A stretch of DNA of 42,634 nt from Candidatus Saccharimonadota bacterium (GTDB taxonomy: Bacteria; Patescibacteriota; Saccharimonadia; Saccharimonadales; JAGQMS01). The stretch is from positions 1-42,634 of the forward strand of contig JAGQMS010000006.1 of NCBI GenBank assembly GCA_020428535.1. The letters run 5' to 3'. The position numbers were made by a program, and so were the translations under genes. The notes beneath the pieces are model-generated. The model saw only the letters and a list, made by a program, of their open reading frames with translations, made no database searches and had not been told where the DNA came from. Positions within the stretch are counted from its first letter, which is position 1, and every line of letters starts with the position of its first letter. Below are positions 1,014-40,230 of this stretch, in pieces.

Positions 1014-1042
1014 TTGCAATATTTATGGTTTTCGTATATAAA
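1014..1042 (+). promoter_or_regulatory. Promoter of the small GC-rich unit
   Basis: TTGCAA (1014-1019), a 17-base spacer and TATAAA (1037-1042) form a good sigma-70 promoter. Seven bases further, the expected transcription start at about 1049 is the first base of the inverted repeat that closes the unit. Confidence 0.6.
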
Positions 1043-1077
1043 TTTGCGAGTCGGAGCACTACCCACTAGGGGGAAAG

Positions 1078-1203
1078 ATGAATTCCAAGAAGGTGATCCA
1101 GTGGGCGGCTTACGCCGTCCTCGGACTTATCTCGCTGGTCGCCGTTGCGGCGGTGATCAGTCGAAATGACCCGGCTTTCCAGCGCAACTACACGAAGCGC
1201 TGA
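1078..1203 (+). CDS. Small single-pass membrane peptide, 41 aa
   Basis: The ORF begins with ATG four bases after a strong AGGGGG ribosome site (1068-1073) and ends in TGA. It encodes 41 residues: a short Asn-Ser-Lys-Lys head, one hydrophobic helix over about residues 6-27, and a polar tail rich in Arg, Asn and Lys. Thirty-one of 40 codons after the start end in G or C, quite unlike the AT-rich neighbours. Promoter, ORF, inner hairpin and paired ends form a compact unit between a minus-strand surface gene and topA. Size, hydrophobicity and end pairing resemble type I toxin mRNAs, but no antitoxin RNA is shown; a small regulatory membrane protein is equally possible. I do not recognise the family. 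Confidence 0.55.
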   Translation: MNSKKVIQWAAYAVLGLISLVAVAAVISRNDPAFQRNYTKR

Positions 1204-1220
1204 AAAACGGGTCCGCCACG

Positions 1221-1250
1221 CAGGGAGGGCTCATTCTCGAGCCCTCCCTG
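1221..1250 (+). other. Perfect 12-bp hairpin downstream of the 41-aa ORF
   Basis: The arms 1221-1232 (CAGGGAGGGCTC) and 1239-1250 (GAGCCCTCCCTG) pair perfectly around a 6-base loop, 17 bases after the ORF stop. No T run follows, so it is not a typical Rho-independent terminator. It may protect the RNA, and its CCCUCCC arm could also pair with the AGGGGG ribosome site. Confidence 0.6.
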
Positions 1251-1364
1251 TAGATGGCCAATTCTATGTGCTCCGACTTTTTCCAAATAGAATTATCTGT
1301 TGCATTTAATATTTTTGAGTAGTAAGCTTGGCGATTGACACTTTTGTTAATATTAATAAAGCTT

Positions 1365-3674
1365 ATGTCCAAGAATCTTGTAATCGTTGAATCGCCAGCC
1401 AAGGCAAAAACTATCTCTAAATTCCTAGAGAGTGGTTTTACAGTGCTCTCGAGCGTAGGGCATATCCGCGATATACCGAAGAAAAAGCTCAAAAACGGGA
1501 CTCCGCCGATTGACGTTGAAAACAACTTTGCGACTGTTTATGAACCAGACCCAACGAAGAAGAAGCTAATAAGTGAGCTCAGAAAAGCTGCCAAAGAAGC
1601 TGATGAAGTATGGATCGCAACCGATGAAGACCGCGAAGGAGAAGCAATCGGCTGGCATCTATGCGAGATTCTAAAACTTGACCCAACTAAAACTAAACGA
1701 ATTGTCTTCCACGAAATCACAAAGACTGCAATTATACACGCTTTAGAGAATCCTAGAACAGTAGATATGAATCTAGTTAATGCTCAACAAGCCAGAAGGG
1801 TGTTGGACCGCTTGGTCGGCTTCGACCTTTCACCAGTCGTTCAAAGAAAAGTGCCCGGAGGAAAGTCGGCTGGCCGTGTTCAATCCCCGGCAGTAAGACT
1901 TCTTGTAGAGAAAGAACGTGAGATCCTTGCTCACCAATCAAAAAGTGATTTTAAGATTACTGCTCAATTTTCTCATGAAAAAGATCAATTTGACGCCGAG
2001 CTTAATACTCGAAAACCGGACGAAGATTCTTCTAGAGTTTTTCTGGAGAGTATTGCTAAAAGTAAATTTAAAGTCAGCGAAGTTTCAACCGATCCGGGCA
2101 CAAGAAACCCCCATGCACCATTCACGACCTCCACACTTCAGCAGGCGGCTGCAAGCAGATTGAGTTTTTCAGTTAAAGCCACGATGTCGGCAGCTCAAAA
2201 ATTGTACCAGGACGGGAAGATCACCTACATGCGGACCGACTCTGTCAACTTGGCTCCTGAGGCAGTAGATAGTATTGGAAAATATATTCAATCTAAATAC
2301 GGACCGGAATACCATCAAACGCGAACATTCAGGACTAAATCTGCCTCCGCCCAGGAAGCGCACGAAGCTATCAGGCCAACTGATATATCTGTTGAACATG
2401 CATCATCTGATATTTATGAACAGAAATTATATGATCTTATTAGGAGCCGTGCTCTAGCCAGTCAGATGGCACCTGCCAAAATTGAGCGAACCAATGTGGC
2501 TGTAGCCGTTGATGGGCATAGTGAGTTGTTCACTGCCAAAGGAGAAGTAATTGTTTTCCCCGGTTTCTTGAAAGCCTATAGCTCATCAAGTAAGGAAGAT
2601 AACATCTTGCCTCCCCTTAAGACAGGTGATGACTTAACTATGTTAACAGCAAGCGCAAAGCAGGTCTTCTCTAGGCCTCCAGCGCGATTTTCAGAAGGTA
2701 GTTTAGTCAAAAAACTTGAGGAGTTAGGTATTGGCAGACCAAGCACCTACGCGACTATAATCTCTACAATTCAAGACCGTGGATATGCCCAGAAGGGTGA
2801 GAACGAAGGCGAGCCAAGGGATACAATTCTGTTAACGCTGAAAAATGGAGCTATCGATAAAGAGATTATCAGTGAAAAAACTGGTTCTGACAGAGGAAAG
2901 CTAGTACCGACAGCCAGCGGTATTGTAGTGAGTGATTTCCTGGAAAAGAACTTCACTCAAGTTGTGGACTATGGATTTACGGCAAATGTCGAGAACGATT
3001 TCGACCAAATCGCTGAAGGTAAGCTAGTCTGGTATGAGATGCTGAAAAGCTTTTATGGACCCTTCAGGCAACTAGTAGAAAAATCAGGTAATATCAGTCG
3101 CTCAGAGGCCTCACAGGCCAGGGAGGTGGGGGTAGATCCTAAGACTGGGAAAATGATTTACGCACGATTTGGTAGGTATGGCCCAATGCTACAACTAGGC
3201 AGCAATGAAAACGAGGATGATAAACCTCAATTTGCAGCGATGCCAAAAGGTGCCTTAATTGAAACTGTAACGCTAGAGCAAGCGATACAGGCCTTCAAAC
3301 TACCTCGAACGGTCGGCAAGACAAGCGAAGGAAAGGAGATAAAGGCAAATATCGGGCGATTTGGGCCTTACGTACAAGTTGAAAAAATGTATGTTTCCAT
3401 CAAGCCACTCGACCCACACGATATTACCTTAGATCAAGCCTTAGAATTGATAGAAGAAAAACTAAAAAAGGATGCTGAGAAGCATATCGCAAGTTTCGGT
3501 AATATTCAGATTTTAAACGGTCCATACGGACCATATATTACTGACGGTAAAAAGAATGCTCGTATAGCTAAAGATACCGACCCGAAAACAATCACCGAAG
3601 ATGAAGCCAAAGAACTTCTAGCAAAAGCACCCGAGAAGAAATCCCGCTGGAAGGTGCGAAAGACCAAAAAATAA
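1365..3674 (+). CDS. topA: DNA topoisomerase I (type IA)
   Basis: Relaxes negatively supercoiled DNA by cutting one strand through a tyrosine-DNA link. The protein opens with the Toprim segment (LVIVESPAKAKTI, with the metal/acid Glu), followed by DEDREGEAIGWHL and the active-site stretch ITYMRTDS with Tyr288. The C-terminus carries three GRFGPY-like Topo-C repeats (about residues 610-745) and a basic tail, and has none of the Cys4 zinc fingers of E. coli TopA. I chose the ATG at 1365 because an in-frame start at 1335 would add ten residues ahead of the conserved MSKNLVIVES start. Length is 769 residues, normal for the zinc-free form. A lone TTGACA lies at 1335-1340, but no well-spaced -10 is clear. 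Confidence 0.95.
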   Translation: MSKNLVIVESPAKAKTISKFLESGFTVLSSVGHIRDIPKKKLKNGTPPIDVENNFATVYEPDPTKKKLISELRKAAKEADEVWIATDEDREGEAIGWHLCEILKLDPTKTKRIVFHEITKTAIIHALENPRTVDMNLVNAQQARRVLDRLVGFDLSPVVQRKVPGGKSAGRVQSPAVRLLVEKEREILAHQSKSDFKITAQFSHEKDQFDAELNTRKPDEDSSRVFLESIAKSKFKVSEVSTDPGTRNPHAPFTTSTLQQAAASRLSFSVKATMSAAQKLYQDGKITYMRTDSVNLAPEAVDSIGKYIQSKYGPEYHQTRTFRTKSASAQEAHEAIRPTDISVEHASSDIYEQKLYDLIRSRALASQMAPAKIERTNVAVAVDGHSELFTAKGEVIVFPGFLKAYSSSSKEDNILPPLKTGDDLTMLTASAKQVFSRPPARFSEGSLVKKLEELGIGRPSTYATIISTIQDRGYAQKGENEGEPRDTILLTLKNGAIDKEIISEKTGSDRGKLVPTASGIVVSDFLEKNFTQVVDYGFTANVENDFDQIAEGKLVWYEMLKSFYGPFRQLVEKSGNISRSEASQAREVGVDPKTGKMIYARFGRYGPMLQLGSNENEDDKPQFAAMPKGALIETVTLEQAIQAFKLPRTVGKTSEGKEIKANIGRFGPYVQVEKMYVSIKPLDPHDITLDQALELIEEKLKKDAEKHIASFGNIQILNGPYGPYITDGKKNARIAKDTDPKTITEDEAKELLAKAPEKKSRWKVRKTKK

Positions 3675-9034: not shown

Positions 9035-9928
9035 TTATTTCCAGTAGACTTTTTCGCCGGCACGAACATCTATATATTCTTTCGGGCTCTCACCCCCCTC
9101 CCCTATGGTCTTGATTGATGCGTAATATGTACCCATTTCAATAAGTGGGTTATCGTCTAAATATAATTTTACGAAATAAGGCGCTCCTACGATTTTAAGC
9201 TCCGCTTCCCTTTGGGATGTCGTTAGACGGAAATATTCTACTTTTTGGTTTTTTGAGTTTAGTATTTGTTTAATTTTGATGAAGTAGTCTACATCGACCT
9301 GTCTTAGGACAATATTTCCTTTAGAAGTCTGTACACCTGATTCATCTTTAATTAATATCTGATCTTTTTGAAATGGTAATGTTTCTATTGTACCGACATT
9401 CATACCTCTTGAAGTAACTAAATAGCTAGCTCCATTAGAGTTATAGGTAATAGGAATTGAGTCTATAGAGATTCGTGCTTCAGGATGTCTTCCAACAAAA
9501 GAATACCTAATGCTAATACTGTTGATTTCAGGAAAATCCCGCATCATGTCTTTTTCTATCTGTGAACTTCTGAGAGTGATCTTGTTTGTATTAAAAATAC
9601 TTTGTTTAAGAAAACTTGTGAGTGGTTGCTTATATCGATCGGCAGTAATACCCGTGGTATTACTCGAAGTAATGTCAATTACAGGTTGGCTATTCAATGC
9701 TAGTAACATGAAAAGGACGTAACCAATAAAAATTGCTAATAGTATATTTCTTATAAATTTTCTATAGTTTCTCGTTGAAGTATCGGCTCGTTTCTTAGAA
9801 TGTCTTTTGCTAGAAGACATATCTATCTCTATAGGTCTAGTGGACGGCGTGTAGTAGTTTTGGACTTTAAAACCTTTCTTAGTAGATCTTCTACGGTCGT
9901 CGCTTTTCTTCTTGAGCTTAAATGCCAT
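9035..9928 (-). CDS. ftsQ: Cell division protein FtsQ/DivIB
   Basis: Bitopic divisome protein linking early and late division proteins at the septum. The 297 residues have the FtsQ plan: a basic cytoplasmic head (about 1-58, very Lys/Arg-rich), one transmembrane helix (about 59-80), a POTRA-like region with VGRHPEARISI near residues 145-155, and a beta-rich C-terminal domain. Its start overlaps the end of murG by 11 bp, and murG-ftsQ is the classic dcw order. Sequence identity to known FtsQ is low, as is usual for this family, so the name leans on domain order and position. It is the last gene of the cluster; ftsA and ftsZ do not follow. Confidence 0.82.
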   Translation of the reverse strand: MAFKLKKKSDDRRRSTKKGFKVQNYYTPSTRPIEIDMSSSKRHSKKRADTSTRNYRKFIRNILLAIFIGYVLFMLLALNSQPVIDITSSNTTGITADRYKQPLTSFLKQSIFNTNKITLRSSQIEKDMMRDFPEINSISIRYSFVGRHPEARISIDSIPITYNSNGASYLVTSRGMNVGTIETLPFQKDQILIKDESGVQTSKGNIVLRQVDVDYFIKIKQILNSKNQKVEYFRLTTSQREAELKIVGAPYFVKLYLDDNPLIEMGTYYASIKTIGEGGESPKEYIDVRAGEKVYWK

Positions 9929-36592: not shown

Positions 36593-37698
36593 ATAATCTC
36601 TGCCCTTCTTGATGTATCTGTAAATATTATATCAACCGACTCGCCTTTTTGGAGGTTAGCACCTTTTGTTATAAGCTTTCCGTTCTTGTCTTTCACCATT
36701 GCATAGCCTCGTTTTAATATGGTTTTTGGGTTCAATAGTTTTAGTCTTTCGGAATAACTATTTAGCCGTTCATTTTCAGTGCTAAACATTCTGGCCATCC
36801 TTGAATTGATTAAGTTATTTGCATTAGAAAGATAATCTTTTGCCCTTTTAATTACAGAACCAAGCGCCAAAGATGTTTGCATTTTAGAATTTCTCAGCCA
36901 ATTTTGCTCTGTCTGTTTGTCGGGTACAAGCAGTTCAGCCAAATTACTAGGTGTCGATGCTCGAAGATCACAGGCCAGCTCAGCAAGCGATTCATCAATT
37001 TCATGTCCAATTGCTACACAAGTTGGGATTCGACTTGCCGAAATTGTTCTAACTACACGTTCGTCACTAAAAGCCGCCAAGTCTTCAGCGCTACCGCCTC
37101 CTCTTATCAAGACTATTGCATCATAATTAATCCCACTTTTATTAGCTTTATCGATTGATTCAACGATCTGTTCAGGAGCATTCGCGCCCTGAACCAAGCT
37201 ATCAATAGTTGAAATTTTTAAAGCAGGCCAACGTTCGGCAGTAATCTTCATGAAATCAGCATGAGCTGCCGACCCTAGTGACGTAATTAAGCATATACTT
37301 TCCGGAGGGTACGGAACTTCTCGTTTTCGTTCCACCAAGAATAGACCTTCTGCTTCAAGCTTTTTGAAAAGAAGTTCAGCTGCTTTTGCGAGCTGACCCT
37401 CTCCTACAGGAGTTATCGATTGCACATTAAGAGAAAAGTTAAATTGTGGGTGCAGTCTCGGAGAGCATACTATCCTCACGAGCATTCCATCTTCAAGTGG
37501 ACCTGGCAACATATAAACCGTTCCAAAGCATTTTACTGTTGCTTCATCATCCTTGAGGTCAAAGTAAACCCATCGGTTCTTTGAAACCCTAAAATTGCTT
37601 AGTTCTCCTTCAACAGTGACAAATGGAAAGGAATACTCTATTGATTGGTTAAATACATCAACGAATTCGGAGGGGCTAAAGATTGGGTCTTGGTTCAT
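36589..37698 (-). CDS. xseA: Exodeoxyribonuclease VII large subunit
   Basis: Degrades single-stranded DNA from both ends together with XseB. The 369 residues start with an OB fold (VEGELSNFRVSKNRWVYFDLKDDEATVKCFG), followed by the catalytic region ICLITSLGSAAHADF, VLIRGGGSAEDLAAFSDERVVRTIS and PTCVAIGHEIDESLAELACDLRASTPSNLAELLV, all family hallmarks. It is shorter than E. coli XseA (456), losing part of the C-terminal coiled coil, which fits the compact genome. It overlaps the preceding flippase-like gene by 23 bp. Confidence 0.95.
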   Translation of the reverse strand: MNQDPIFSPSEFVDVFNQSIEYSFPFVTVEGELSNFRVSKNRWVYFDLKDDEATVKCFGTVYMLPGPLEDGMLVRIVCSPRLHPQFNFSLNVQSITPVGEGQLAKAAELLFKKLEAEGLFLVERKREVPYPPESICLITSLGSAAHADFMKITAERWPALKISTIDSLVQGANAPEQIVESIDKANKSGINYDAIVLIRGGGSAEDLAAFSDERVVRTISASRIPTCVAIGHEIDESLAELACDLRASTPSNLAELLVPDKQTEQNWLRNSKMQTSLALGSVIKRAKDYLSNANNLINSRMARMFSTENERLNSYSERLKLLNPKTILKRGYAMVKDKNGKLITKGANLQKGESVDIIFTDTSRRAEII

Positions 37699-38716
37699 TC
37701 TTTCTACCCCTCAGGCCGATCTGATAAAGTACGAAGCCGACTGGCAAAAAGATCGACATGTTCAGCACTCTGTATACAAGTGTTGCTGATAGCGCCAATG
37801 CTTTAGGAATACCTGAACCCGTCAAAACGGCAGTCATTAAACCTTCGTAAACACCAAAACCACCCGGTAATACTGCAACTAATCCAGCAATATTTGCAAC
37901 AGCATAAGCGATAATAATCGCTCCAAAGTTTACTGTCTGGCCAAATGCAAAATATACCACGTTGATTGTCAGAAGCTCAGTTAGGTTCATCATCAAAGTC
38001 CAAAAAAATGGTCGACGGAGCAGTCGCCAATCACGATGGATTACAAGATAGTCCTCATGGAGCTGAGACACTAGATGATCAATCCTTTCAATGTTAATTC
38101 TGGGTAGCCTACCTCTTAAGATAATTCGTGCCACCTTGTTGATGGCTCTTGGCAAAAATGCCACGAATTTTCTCGCTCTTGATGCGCTTGAAATTACAAA
38201 CACAACCAAAGCTGTGGCGACTAGTATCAAACTGATAATCGAAGAACTCACAAGGACCATGAACCGGCTTGCATTTCCAAAAAGACTCAGCACCAATAGC
38301 GCCACAAGCATGTAGACAATGAAGCTCAGAAAAGTTAGTGTGTGGCGCATAACTTGCGTCAGCGTAGCTTTGGAAGTACTAATACCTTCATCTTTAAGTC
38401 GCATCCCGATATATCCAAAACCACTCACTCCACCACTTGGAAAAACATTGTTCACAAAATTTAGTTCTAAAGCAAGCTTGAACAGTGGCGAGAACTTAAT
38501 ATCTTCACCAAGCCCACGCAGATATGTCTGATAATACTTCGCTACTGATGTATAATTTCCGATTTGTAGAGGGATTATCATCAACAACCAAAAATAATTT
38601 AGGTCTACAAGTTTTTCGAAAGCATCAACAATCTGATGCCTTGATACGAAAATCAGCACCGCCAAAGCGATGATTGTGACGATATTTAGCCAGAGTTTGA
38701 AAGATCTTAATTTCAT
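37676..38716 (-). CDS. Lysylphosphatidylglycerol-synthase TM-region/UPF0104-like membrane protein
   Basis: A 346-residue membrane protein with about eight hydrophobic helices, of the UPF0104/MprF-flippase-like group. It shows NFVNNVFPSGGVSGFGYIGMRL in the middle and AVLPGGFGVYEGLMTAVL near the end, the two Gly/Pro-rich signatures of the family. MprF-type relatives flip aminoacylated lipids, while others are linked to glycolipid transport; no aminoacyltransferase domain is fused here. A structured leader of about 140 nt seems to precede it, driven by an extended -10 (complement of 38865-38873). Confidence 0.85.
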   Translation of the reverse strand: MKLRSFKLWLNIVTIIALAVLIFVSRHQIVDAFEKLVDLNYFWLLMIIPLQIGNYTSVAKYYQTYLRGLGEDIKFSPLFKLALELNFVNNVFPSGGVSGFGYIGMRLKDEGISTSKATLTQVMRHTLTFLSFIVYMLVALLVLSLFGNASRFMVLVSSSIISLILVATALVVFVISSASRARKFVAFLPRAINKVARIILRGRLPRINIERIDHLVSQLHEDYLVIHRDWRLLRRPFFWTLMMNLTELLTINVVYFAFGQTVNFGAIIIAYAVANIAGLVAVLPGGFGVYEGLMTAVLTGSGIPKALALSATLVYRVLNMSIFLPVGFVLYQIGLRGRKNEPRPNL

Positions 38717-38858
38717 AGCTTTAGGGTACGACCCGGGTGGGCGGGAGTCTCCTCCCTAGTCGCTACACGAGCAGATGTTCACATGCCGAAGCGTCCGGGA
38801 AGCGACGACGGGAGAGTCTTCTCCCCGTTTTCGTGAATCTACCTGAAGGTATAGGACT
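38717..38858 (-). ncRNA. Candidate structured leader of the flippase-like gene
   Basis: This GC-rich stretch stands out from its surroundings. It holds two similar short hairpins, GGGAG/CTCCC at 38743-38756 and CGGGAGA with TCTCCCCG at 38809-38827, around a larger stem GTCGCT (38759-38764)/AGCGAC (38801-38806). An extended -10, TGGTATACT on the minus strand (complement of 38865-38873), would start an RNA near 38858 that reaches the ATG at 38716. On the plus strand the 38809-38827 hairpin is followed by TTTT, so a terminator reading is possible. No known riboswitch class is recognised. Confidence 0.45.
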
Positions 38859-38891
38859 TAATTCAGTATACCAGTTTCGTATTCTTAGAGG

Positions 38892-38897
38892 TATAAT
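38892..38897 (+). promoter_or_regulatory. -10 element of the methyltransferase leader
   Basis: A perfect TATAAT predicts a start near 38904, at the base of the first stem of the leader. The -35 is poor. Confidence 0.5.
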
Positions 38898-38903
38898 AAC
38901 AAT

Positions 38904-39057
38904 CGTCAGCCGCCTGAGCGGACAACCCTTAGTGGCAACGGGAGGTTGCTGACATGCAGGGTGATGGAAGGGGCGTTGCACGCTTATTGGGTCCTGTTTG
39001 CTGCTGGATGCCCAGTAGGCGCAGCGCGCCCCTTCCTCCCCTGTTCTTACAAATCTT
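38904..39057 (+). ncRNA. Candidate structured leader RNA of the Trm11-like gene
   Basis: About 150 GC-rich bases between the TATAAT and the methyltransferase ATG can fold into a branched element. A closing stem GTCAG (38905-38909)/CTGAC (38949-38953) encloses a CCGC-CTGA-GCGG hairpin (38910-38921) and a second arm. A 10-bp stem GGAAGGGGCG (38966-38975)/CGCCCCTTCC (39027-39036) follows, with a smaller hairpin inside. It ends 21 bases before the start codon. It does not match SRP RNA, tmRNA, RNase P RNA or a riboswitch I know. A 38-codon ORF at 38954-39070 is probably incidental. Confidence 0.5.
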
Positions 39058-40230
39058 ATGCAATCAATAGCAATTTTAGGAAGACAACCGGCCTTAGGTC
39101 TAGCAGAGCTAGAGAGTCTTTTCGGGGCAGAAAAAATACATCCTCTTCACGGGGGTGGAGCTTTGCTCGATATCTCAGCTGGAGCAGTTCCCTTTGCTCG
39201 ACTTGGTGGCGTCATCAAGCTTGGCACTGTACTGACAATTCTTGATACTACCGATTGGTTTGAAATTGAGAAGTTTCTCTTGCCAGCTTGCAAAGAACAT
39301 TCGCAATATGTTCCGGAAGGAAAATTAACAATTGGTCTGAGTGTTTATGGCCTTCGTGTGTCGACCAAGATGCTGGAACGAACCAGTTTAAGTATTAAGA
39401 AGACTATAAAAACTACAGGCCGACCAGTTAGAATTGTACCGAATAAGACCCTAGAGATCTCAACCCCTCAAATACTGCACAATAAACTAACTCACGAAAA
39501 CGGTTGGGAGTTGGTTTTTTACAGAGACGGAAGCAAAACTATAGTCGCCCGAACCAACTTTGTTCAAGATATCGAAAGCTACACTGCTCGAGACCAAGCT
39601 AGACCAATGCGCGATTCGCGCGTTGGAATGCTCCCTCCTAAGTTAGCCCAAATAATAATAAATTTGGCTTCAAGTAATACTTCGCCAGAAACTGTCCTCG
39701 ATCCGTTCTGCGGTACAGGAGTGGTACTTCAAGAAGCTTCTCTAATGGGCATGAACGCATACGGTACTGACATAGAACCCAGAATGGTAGATTATTCTAT
39801 TGCCAATCTAAAGTGGATTCGAGAAAAGTGGCGCATAGACAATTATGTACGTATTGAAGTTGGTGATGCCACGAACCATCAATGGAAATTCGAGGAAGGT
39901 ACGGTTGTTGCATGCGAAGGATATTTGGGGCTTCCCTTTGCCCACCTACCTAGCGATAAACAACTCCAAGAGTCAGTTCAGGCATCGAACACTGTGATGA
40001 AAGCTTTCCTCAAGAACTTATCAACTCAAGCCGGTTCAGGTCTTAGGGCTGCTATTGCCATGCCCGCATGGCATGTCAACAAAAAAATCATTCATCTCCC
40101 CTGCCTAGCTCAAATAGAGGCTTTTGGTTGGCAAAGAGTAAATTTCAAGCATGTAAATTTTGATGATCTGATCTATCACCGTGAAGACCAAATAGTTGGT
40201 CGCGAATTAGTAGTGTTAGAGAAAATTTAG
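39058..40230 (+). CDS. Trm11/TrmG10-like methyltransferase with degenerate catalytic motif
   Basis: A 390-residue SAM-dependent methyltransferase resembling tRNA guanine-N2 enzymes. The first 170 residues would be the RNA-binding part. RDQARPMRDSRVGMLPPKLAQIIINLA is the typical lead-in, followed by the SAM motif VLDPFCGTGVVLQEA (near residues 220-234) and GTDIEPRMVDYSIANLKW. The catalytic DPPYG motif expected next reads VACEGYLGLPF, so Asp-Pro-Pro-Tyr is lost. Either the target or chemistry differs or the enzyme is inactive. It starts after a structured leader and has no ribosome site. No downstream partner: the next gene converges. Confidence 0.8.
   Translation: MQSIAILGRQPALGLAELESLFGAEKIHPLHGGGALLDISAGAVPFARLGGVIKLGTVLTILDTTDWFEIEKFLLPACKEHSQYVPEGKLTIGLSVYGLRVSTKMLERTSLSIKKTIKTTGRPVRIVPNKTLEISTPQILHNKLTHENGWELVFYRDGSKTIVARTNFVQDIESYTARDQARPMRDSRVGMLPPKLAQIIINLASSNTSPETVLDPFCGTGVVLQEASLMGMNAYGTDIEPRMVDYSIANLKWIREKWRIDNYVRIEVGDATNHQWKFEEGTVVACEGYLGLPFAHLPSDKQLQESVQASNTVMKAFLKNLSTQAGSGLRAAIAMPAWHVNKKIIHLPCLAQIEAFGWQRVNFKHVNFDDLIYHREDQIVGRELVVLEKI

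Follow-up and report, generated by a model that had tools for sequence, protein, structure and literature searches.

Membrane-acting type I toxins are peptides of fewer than 60 amino acids, hydrophobic, with one helix and a cationic C-terminus (PMC8309996). In AapA and hok, the full-length message hides its own Shine-Dalgarno sequence (PMC6733600). A preliminary description of a short interval upstream of topA in a saccharibacterial genome had proposed a possible toxin of this type, in which pairing of the RNA ends would keep the message for a small membrane peptide silent. Computational analysis of this unit yielded a coding reading frame, an excess of RNA structure and membership in a set of about 11 units. 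It had escaped the preliminary description that the unit is a foreign island rich in GC and that it has others of its kind in the genome.

Position and elements of the unit

The window, by which we mean the whole stretch of DNA that was analysed, is contig C39 with a length of 42,634 bases. It belongs to a draft assembly of 783 kb in 42 contigs, and the closest relatives available for comparison are members of the same order only. Homologues of another gene of the genome belong to named Candidatus Saccharibacteria, and on this basis the genome is regarded here as saccharibacterial. The unit sits 1 kb from a contig end and occupies the gap between a minus-strand gene for a signal-peptide or membrane protein (1–983), which is cut off by the contig end, and topA (DNA topoisomerase I; 1365–3674, plus strand), the next gene downstream. 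It lies on the same strand as topA and ends 82 nt upstream of it. The unit forms a sharp GC island (0.57–0.60, compared with 0.41 for the genome), and the GC contrast of its interval is the largest among all of the 1122 intervals in the genome that are bounded by inverted repeats.

A candidate plus-strand promoter, read from the sequence, consists of TTGCAA (1014–1019), a 17-nt spacer and TATAAA (1037–1042). The RNA start predicted from it, at about 1049, coincides with the left arm (AGTCGGAGCAC, 1049–1059, plus strand) of a terminal inverted repeat. The promoter had earlier been called complete; its sites are present and the predicted start meets the arm, but its quality is moderate only, as sites of this quality turn up roughly every 830 nt (0.17 expected in the 65-nt stretch that contains it) and a stricter promoter scan does not list it. 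A Shine-Dalgarno-like region with AGGGGG (1066–1073) is present upstream of the ORF, as had been described, and is followed by the ORF of 41 codons (1078–1203). Within the ORF, the 11 bases AGGTGATCCAG (1091–1101) are the complement of the 3′ end of 16S rRNA, as judged against the canonical bacterial end, the organism's own 16S 3′ end being missing from the assembly. A hairpin spans the stop codon (1167–1213; z −5.2) and a second hairpin (1213–1258; z −6.9), which carries no U-tract, contains a perfect 12-bp core (1221–1232/1239–1250). The right arm GTGCTCCGACT (1268–1278) and a TTTTT tract (1278–1282), the likely 3′ end, complete the unit. The T tract adjoins the closing arm and not the 12-bp hairpin.

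The inverted repeat, the T tract, the 41-residue ORF and the 12-bp hairpin were all recovered where the preliminary description had placed them. The repeat is perfect over its 11 bp. By itself it is unremarkable, since the genome contains 1122 inverted repeats with arms of at least 10 bases, which is about the number predicted by chance from the length of the sequence.

Coding capacity and folding of the RNA

The ORF product, MNSKKVIQWAAYAVLGLISLVAVAAVISRNDPAFQRNYTKR, is a peptide of 41 amino acids with one hydrophobic helix, a net positive charge and the C-terminus RNYTKR. Its 19-residue Kyte-Doolittle mean is 2.35, and the membrane topology is predicted from hydropathy alone. GC at codon positions 1, 2 and 3 is 0.56, 0.41 and 0.78, respectively, the means of 18 native genes of the window being 0.50, 0.38 and 0.37. 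None of the 41-codon windows in these 18 genes reaches a GC3 of 0.78. A codon-usage model built from 1184 codons of nine other GC-rich genes in the genome gives the ORF frame a score of +10.2 nats and none of the five remaining frames more than +0.6. The composition and codon usage of the unit are therefore foreign to the genome as a whole, and the ORF codons fit its other GC-rich genes.

An ORF can arise accidentally in a structured, GC-rich RNA, and 20,000 structure-preserving shuffles were used to address this possibility. An ORF of 41 codons arises in 35% of them, one as hydrophobic as that of the unit in 0.005% (5e-5), and a gap between GC3 and GC2 as large as the one observed never arises. 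The codon-usage and shuffle results together make it very probable that the peptide is real and that the 41-codon ORF is a genuine coding gene.

The 234-nt RNA has a minimum free energy (MFE) of −127.7 kcal/mol with a z-score of −9.35, and a second run gave a z-score of −10.2. In the MFE structure, 1049–1059 is paired with 1268–1278 and the two arms form a closing stem around six hairpins. Each segment of the RNA is significant separately, with z-scores ranging from about −3 (ORF) to −7.6 (3′ part). Compared with permuted synonymous codons, the z-score of the fold is about −3 for the ORF and −3.9 for the whole unit, and the latter is −4.9 when random synonymous codons matched in GC3 are used as the control. 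Since the fold of the unit beats the synonymous-codon controls, its structure is no by-product of coding. The RNA structure exceeds the demands of coding and of composition, and the unit as a whole is far beyond chance. The folding and coding tests thus bear out the earlier view that the unit is self-contained, with a peptide that is truly encoded and a structured RNA whose ends pair.

No close homologue of the peptide was found in the order (60 genomes), in the phylum (380 genomes) or among 84,980 species genomes, viral contigs, phages and plasmids, where a single-protein search with a peptide of 41 residues reaches close relatives only. With the same reach, the last four collections gave no donor for the unit. 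Weak matches to the peptide (E 0.004–0.25; 36–55% identity, some with stops) were judged to be due to chance. A covariance model of the element found no match upstream of topA in 29 related loci or in 392 other genomes of the order, and the arm pattern at similar spacing is absent from viral contigs. An 18-bp match to the left arm in one relative lies inside rpsS and is coincidental. No Rfam family reaches its gathering threshold on the unit; membership in CC2171 was rejected at 25.4 bits (gathering score 75). The preliminary description had taken a lack of homologues or covariation in related genomes as evidence against its proposal, and as far as the data reach neither was found. Missing homologues are equally what an orphan gene would show, and the foreign composition and codons of the unit, combined with the lack of a homologue in related genomes, are those of a horizontally acquired orphan gene.

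GC-rich units elsewhere in the genome

A scan of 774 kb of the genome, in which units were gathered by GC and partly by eye, gave about 11 GC-rich units with foreign codon usage, mostly orphan genes. These are three units on C1 (L059 4239–4610, L117 879–1259 and L117 1452–1733), one on C5 (L063), two on C11 (L101 5136–5471 and L102 3148–3711), one on C14 (L072 736–1026), two on C22 (L081, an acetyltransferase, and L105), one on C41 (L099) and the unit in the window. Two related genomes, scanned over 400 kb each, contain at most one clear unit of such kind. With the exception of the acetyltransferase, no unit scored above the family cut-off in Pfam; in PHROGs, the acetyltransferase has a match at 1.3e-10 and the other units have only weak matches (E above 0.01). 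Searches of viral contigs gave no relatives of the acetyltransferase unit, L102, L105 or L099 and no pattern match for L117a.

A perfect terminal inverted repeat, with one arm ahead of the start and the other beyond the 3′ hairpin, closes five of the units. The arm is AGTCGGAGCAC in the window, CAGCCATGGAAGA in the C1 unit, GGAACACTTG in the C11 unit, where imperfect pairing extends out to about 35 bp, and GCACCAAGGAG in both the C14 and the C41 unit. Terminal arms of at least 10 complementary bases are present in 5–6 of the 11 units as compared to 25 of 568 long ORFs (4.4%). The uncertainty concerns C5, whose arm is doubtful: the match is 12 bp long and the upstream arm is about 215 nt away, probably within the neighbouring gene. 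When both C5 and the window, which was chosen for its repeat, are omitted, 4 of 10 units have arms (binomial probability about 6e-4). End closure is not universal in the set, terminal arms being absent in 6 of the 11 units (5 of 11 if the C5 match is counted). The closing stem appears in the MFE structure of every arm-bounded span tested. Compared with permuted codons, the ORFs of the units have a mean fold z-score of −2.0 and native genes one of −0.37 (p 1e-4). The 3′ hairpin in these units is without a U-tract and is followed by the arm.

The C14 (L072 699–1042) and C41 (L099 13709–14100) units carry unrelated genes, of 96 and 101 aa, between identical inverted arms (GCACCAAGGAG/CTCCTTGGTGC) and have 16 bases, CTCCTTGGTGCATTAA, in common at their right end. 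In both of them the left arm contains the Shine-Dalgarno sequence, and therefore the 3′ end of the mRNA could mask it. These two units are candidates for silencing by end pairing.

Promoter-like sequences were seen at some of the other units. L102 and L105, which are unrelated, have an exact promoter-like 15-mer (CTTATGCTATAATAT) in common upstream of their GC-rich ORFs, and TTGACA-N17-TATAAT is located upstream of the L101 unit on C11. The acetyltransferase unit (L081 7746–8498) has homologues in 10 of 247 genomes of the order including its own (about 4%), and a donor search with it returned mainly distant homologues from Saccharibacteria. The GC3 of the acetyltransferase is above that of most neighbours in most of those homologue genomes. 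In L162, L163 and L164, a short leader peptide with the ending ..AYL.. lies in front of the acetyltransferase, and the codons of this ending can pair with a terminator arm that follows; this arrangement suggests leader-peptide attenuation.

Further structured or inserted elements were observed in the genome. The 3′ ends of four tRNA genes, for Met, Ala, Arg and Leu (L064 3337–3757, L076 32–291, L059 5771–6044 and L099 9278–9494), are repeated directly about 130–190 bp away and enclose short, often strongly folded inserts, twice in tandem in L064. They look like miniature inserts at tRNA 3′ ends. The window contains a second GC-rich (0.52–0.55), strongly folded intergenic island at 38735–39050 (z −4.2 on the plus strand), between the genes at 37676–38716 and 39058–40230. 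It has no match in Rfam, its DNA matches nothing in 79 related genomes, and it is possibly an unannotated structured RNA. On C11, a GC-rich island (L103 18817–19140) with 13-bp inverted arms (TTGAAAGGTGATA) contains tRNA-Phe, further structured sequence and a GC-rich hairpin. On C37, an island with a GC of 0.66 (L096, about 9137–9630) has several hairpins, and its terminal arms (GGTGT..AGAAGTTG) are imperfect; neither an Rfam match nor a tRNA was found in it.

Possible role of the unit and comparison with known systems

We favour, at a probability of roughly 55%, the reading of the unit as a foreign accessory gene whose mRNA is stabilised and end-closed and would encode a membrane-acting peptide. 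According to this model, a GC-rich small gene unit of foreign type would have lodged between the membrane-protein gene and topA, and its mRNA, extending from about 1049 to about 1282, is predicted to fold over nearly the whole length with the ends paired in the 11-bp stem. The closed stem and the hairpins may shield both ends of the mRNA from RNases, aid termination and insulate the unit from topA, and such protection of the ends would result in a long-lived message. Stabilisation of both ends by the stem is suggested by what is generally known of bacterial mRNA decay. It is possible that the 41-residue peptide is toxin-like or serves in contact, acting at the membrane of its own cell or at that of the host bacterium.

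A type I toxin proper, that is, a membrane-depolarising peptide whose mRNA is silenced through 5′–3′ pairing together with an antisense RNA in the manner of hok/Sok or AapA/IsoA, seems unlikely. From the earlier proposal of such a toxin, the peptide features stand, as the size, helix and cationic C-terminus match the published ones (PMC8309996), and so does the strongly folded mRNA with paired ends; the shared arm GCACCAAGGAG of the C14 and C41 sister units, which holds the Shine-Dalgarno sequence, also speaks for it. The proposed silencing found no support. The predicted opening energy of 1064–1091 is 8.9 kcal/mol for the full-length RNA and 8.8 kcal/mol both when the 3′ arm is removed and when the whole 3′ region is, and the AUG has an unpaired probability of 0.99 at full length versus 0.85 without the 3′ arm. 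The presence of the 3′ arm thus makes neither the Shine-Dalgarno region, whose predicted accessibility is the same after the loss of either end, nor the AUG less accessible. A weak GATAAT on the minus strand had been suggested to drive an antisense RNA, but no minus-strand promoter-like site was found in 984–1364 under two rules, including near the GATAAT. With a predicted accessibility that is independent of the ends and no antisense promoter-like site in this interval, a silenced toxin message is unsupported for the unit in the window. No homologue of a known toxin was found in Pfam, NCBIfam, PHROGs or Rfam either. The arms could instead be the ends of a mobile DNA cassette; a recombinase that moves small GC-rich genes would recognise them. 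Such a cassette would fit the different genes held between identical arms in C14 and C41 with CTCCTTGGTGCATTAA common at the right end, the ending of GC-rich DNA at or near the arms, and the occurrence of 3 GC-elevated intervals bounded by inverted repeats (contrast at least 0.2) where 0.15 were expected. However, the arm sequences differ between the remaining units, the units are single copies, flanking target duplication is not significant in six units, and the arm motif with its start context is absent from 99 related genomes; we regard a cassette as quite unlikely. A direct repeat at 286-bp spacing around the element, considered as a target duplication, was not significant (p 0.16), and the target-site duplication and several copies expected of a MITE-like element were not found for the unit.

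The very strong plus-strand fold, the GC-rich island and the paired ends would also suit a non-coding structured RNA gene with an incidental ORF, especially as an ORF of this length is not rare in the shuffles (35%) and the two islands in L103 and L096 look RNA-like. This is very unlikely in view of the codon usage, hydropathy and GC3-GC2 contrast of the ORF, which structure-preserving shuffles essentially never reproduce. A retron or other reverse-transcriptase RNA, considered for the paired ends, was rejected as there is no adjacent reverse transcriptase gene. The location on the same strand, 82 nt upstream of topA, raises the idea of a regulatory leader of topA, namely an attenuator with a leader peptide like the attenuator-like arrangement that precedes the acetyltransferase gene in other Saccharibacteria. 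Such a leader is highly improbable because the homologous topA genes of relatives lack the element (29 related loci and 392 other genomes of the order); the foreign codon usage of the ORF and the lack of a terminator hairpin with an adjacent U-tract also argue against it. It is just as improbable that the features were assembled by chance or are an artefact of assembly. Repeats of 11 bp commonly arise by chance, the contig end of a draft assembly is 1 kb away and the promoter is moderate, but the fold z-scores of −9 to −10, the coding tests and the recurrence of the architecture on other contigs speak against both.

Beyond the end-closed accessory gene in the window, functional terminal stems might define an undescribed class in this lineage, consisting of end-closed, hyperstructured mRNAs with GC-rich orphan accessory genes. 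The stem would control stability and, where the Shine-Dalgarno sequence lies in the arm (C14 and C41), translation. We put this forward as a tentative and rather doubtful proposal. In its extreme form, which is speculative, messages with host-like codons and resistance to nucleases would have their effect inside the actinobacterial host cell. If the class is real, it represents a distinct way for genome-reduced epibiotic bacteria to retain small foreign genes scattered over the genome, each on a self-contained message closed at its ends. In a group about whose accessory genes almost nothing is known, the units would then offer specific candidates for peptides that act at membranes or in contact. 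Since unrelated genes carry identical arms, what the stem does can be tested directly.

Three known systems resemble the unit. The Caulobacter sRNA family CC2171 of Rfam gives a weak full-length covariance match, which includes AGGTGATCCAG and the GC-rich 3′ hairpin, although a short identical stretch and GC-rich stems account for most of the score. Like AapA/IsoA of Helicobacter pylori and hok/Sok, the unit combines a small cationic membrane peptide of a single helix with a small, heavily folded mRNA whose 5′ and 3′ ends are paired (PMC6733600, PMC8309996). It differs from them in that its end pairing leaves the predicted accessibility of the Shine-Dalgarno sequence and AUG unchanged, in having no antisense promoter found and no sequence similarity, and in consisting of GC-rich foreign DNA. 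In contrast to phage morons, the unit lies outside a prophage, is closed by a terminal inverted repeat and has no match in phage or viral collections. Nevertheless, it shares with morons and similar accessory orphan units a single small gene with a promoter-like site and a 3′ hairpin, foreign composition and the lack of kindred neighbours.
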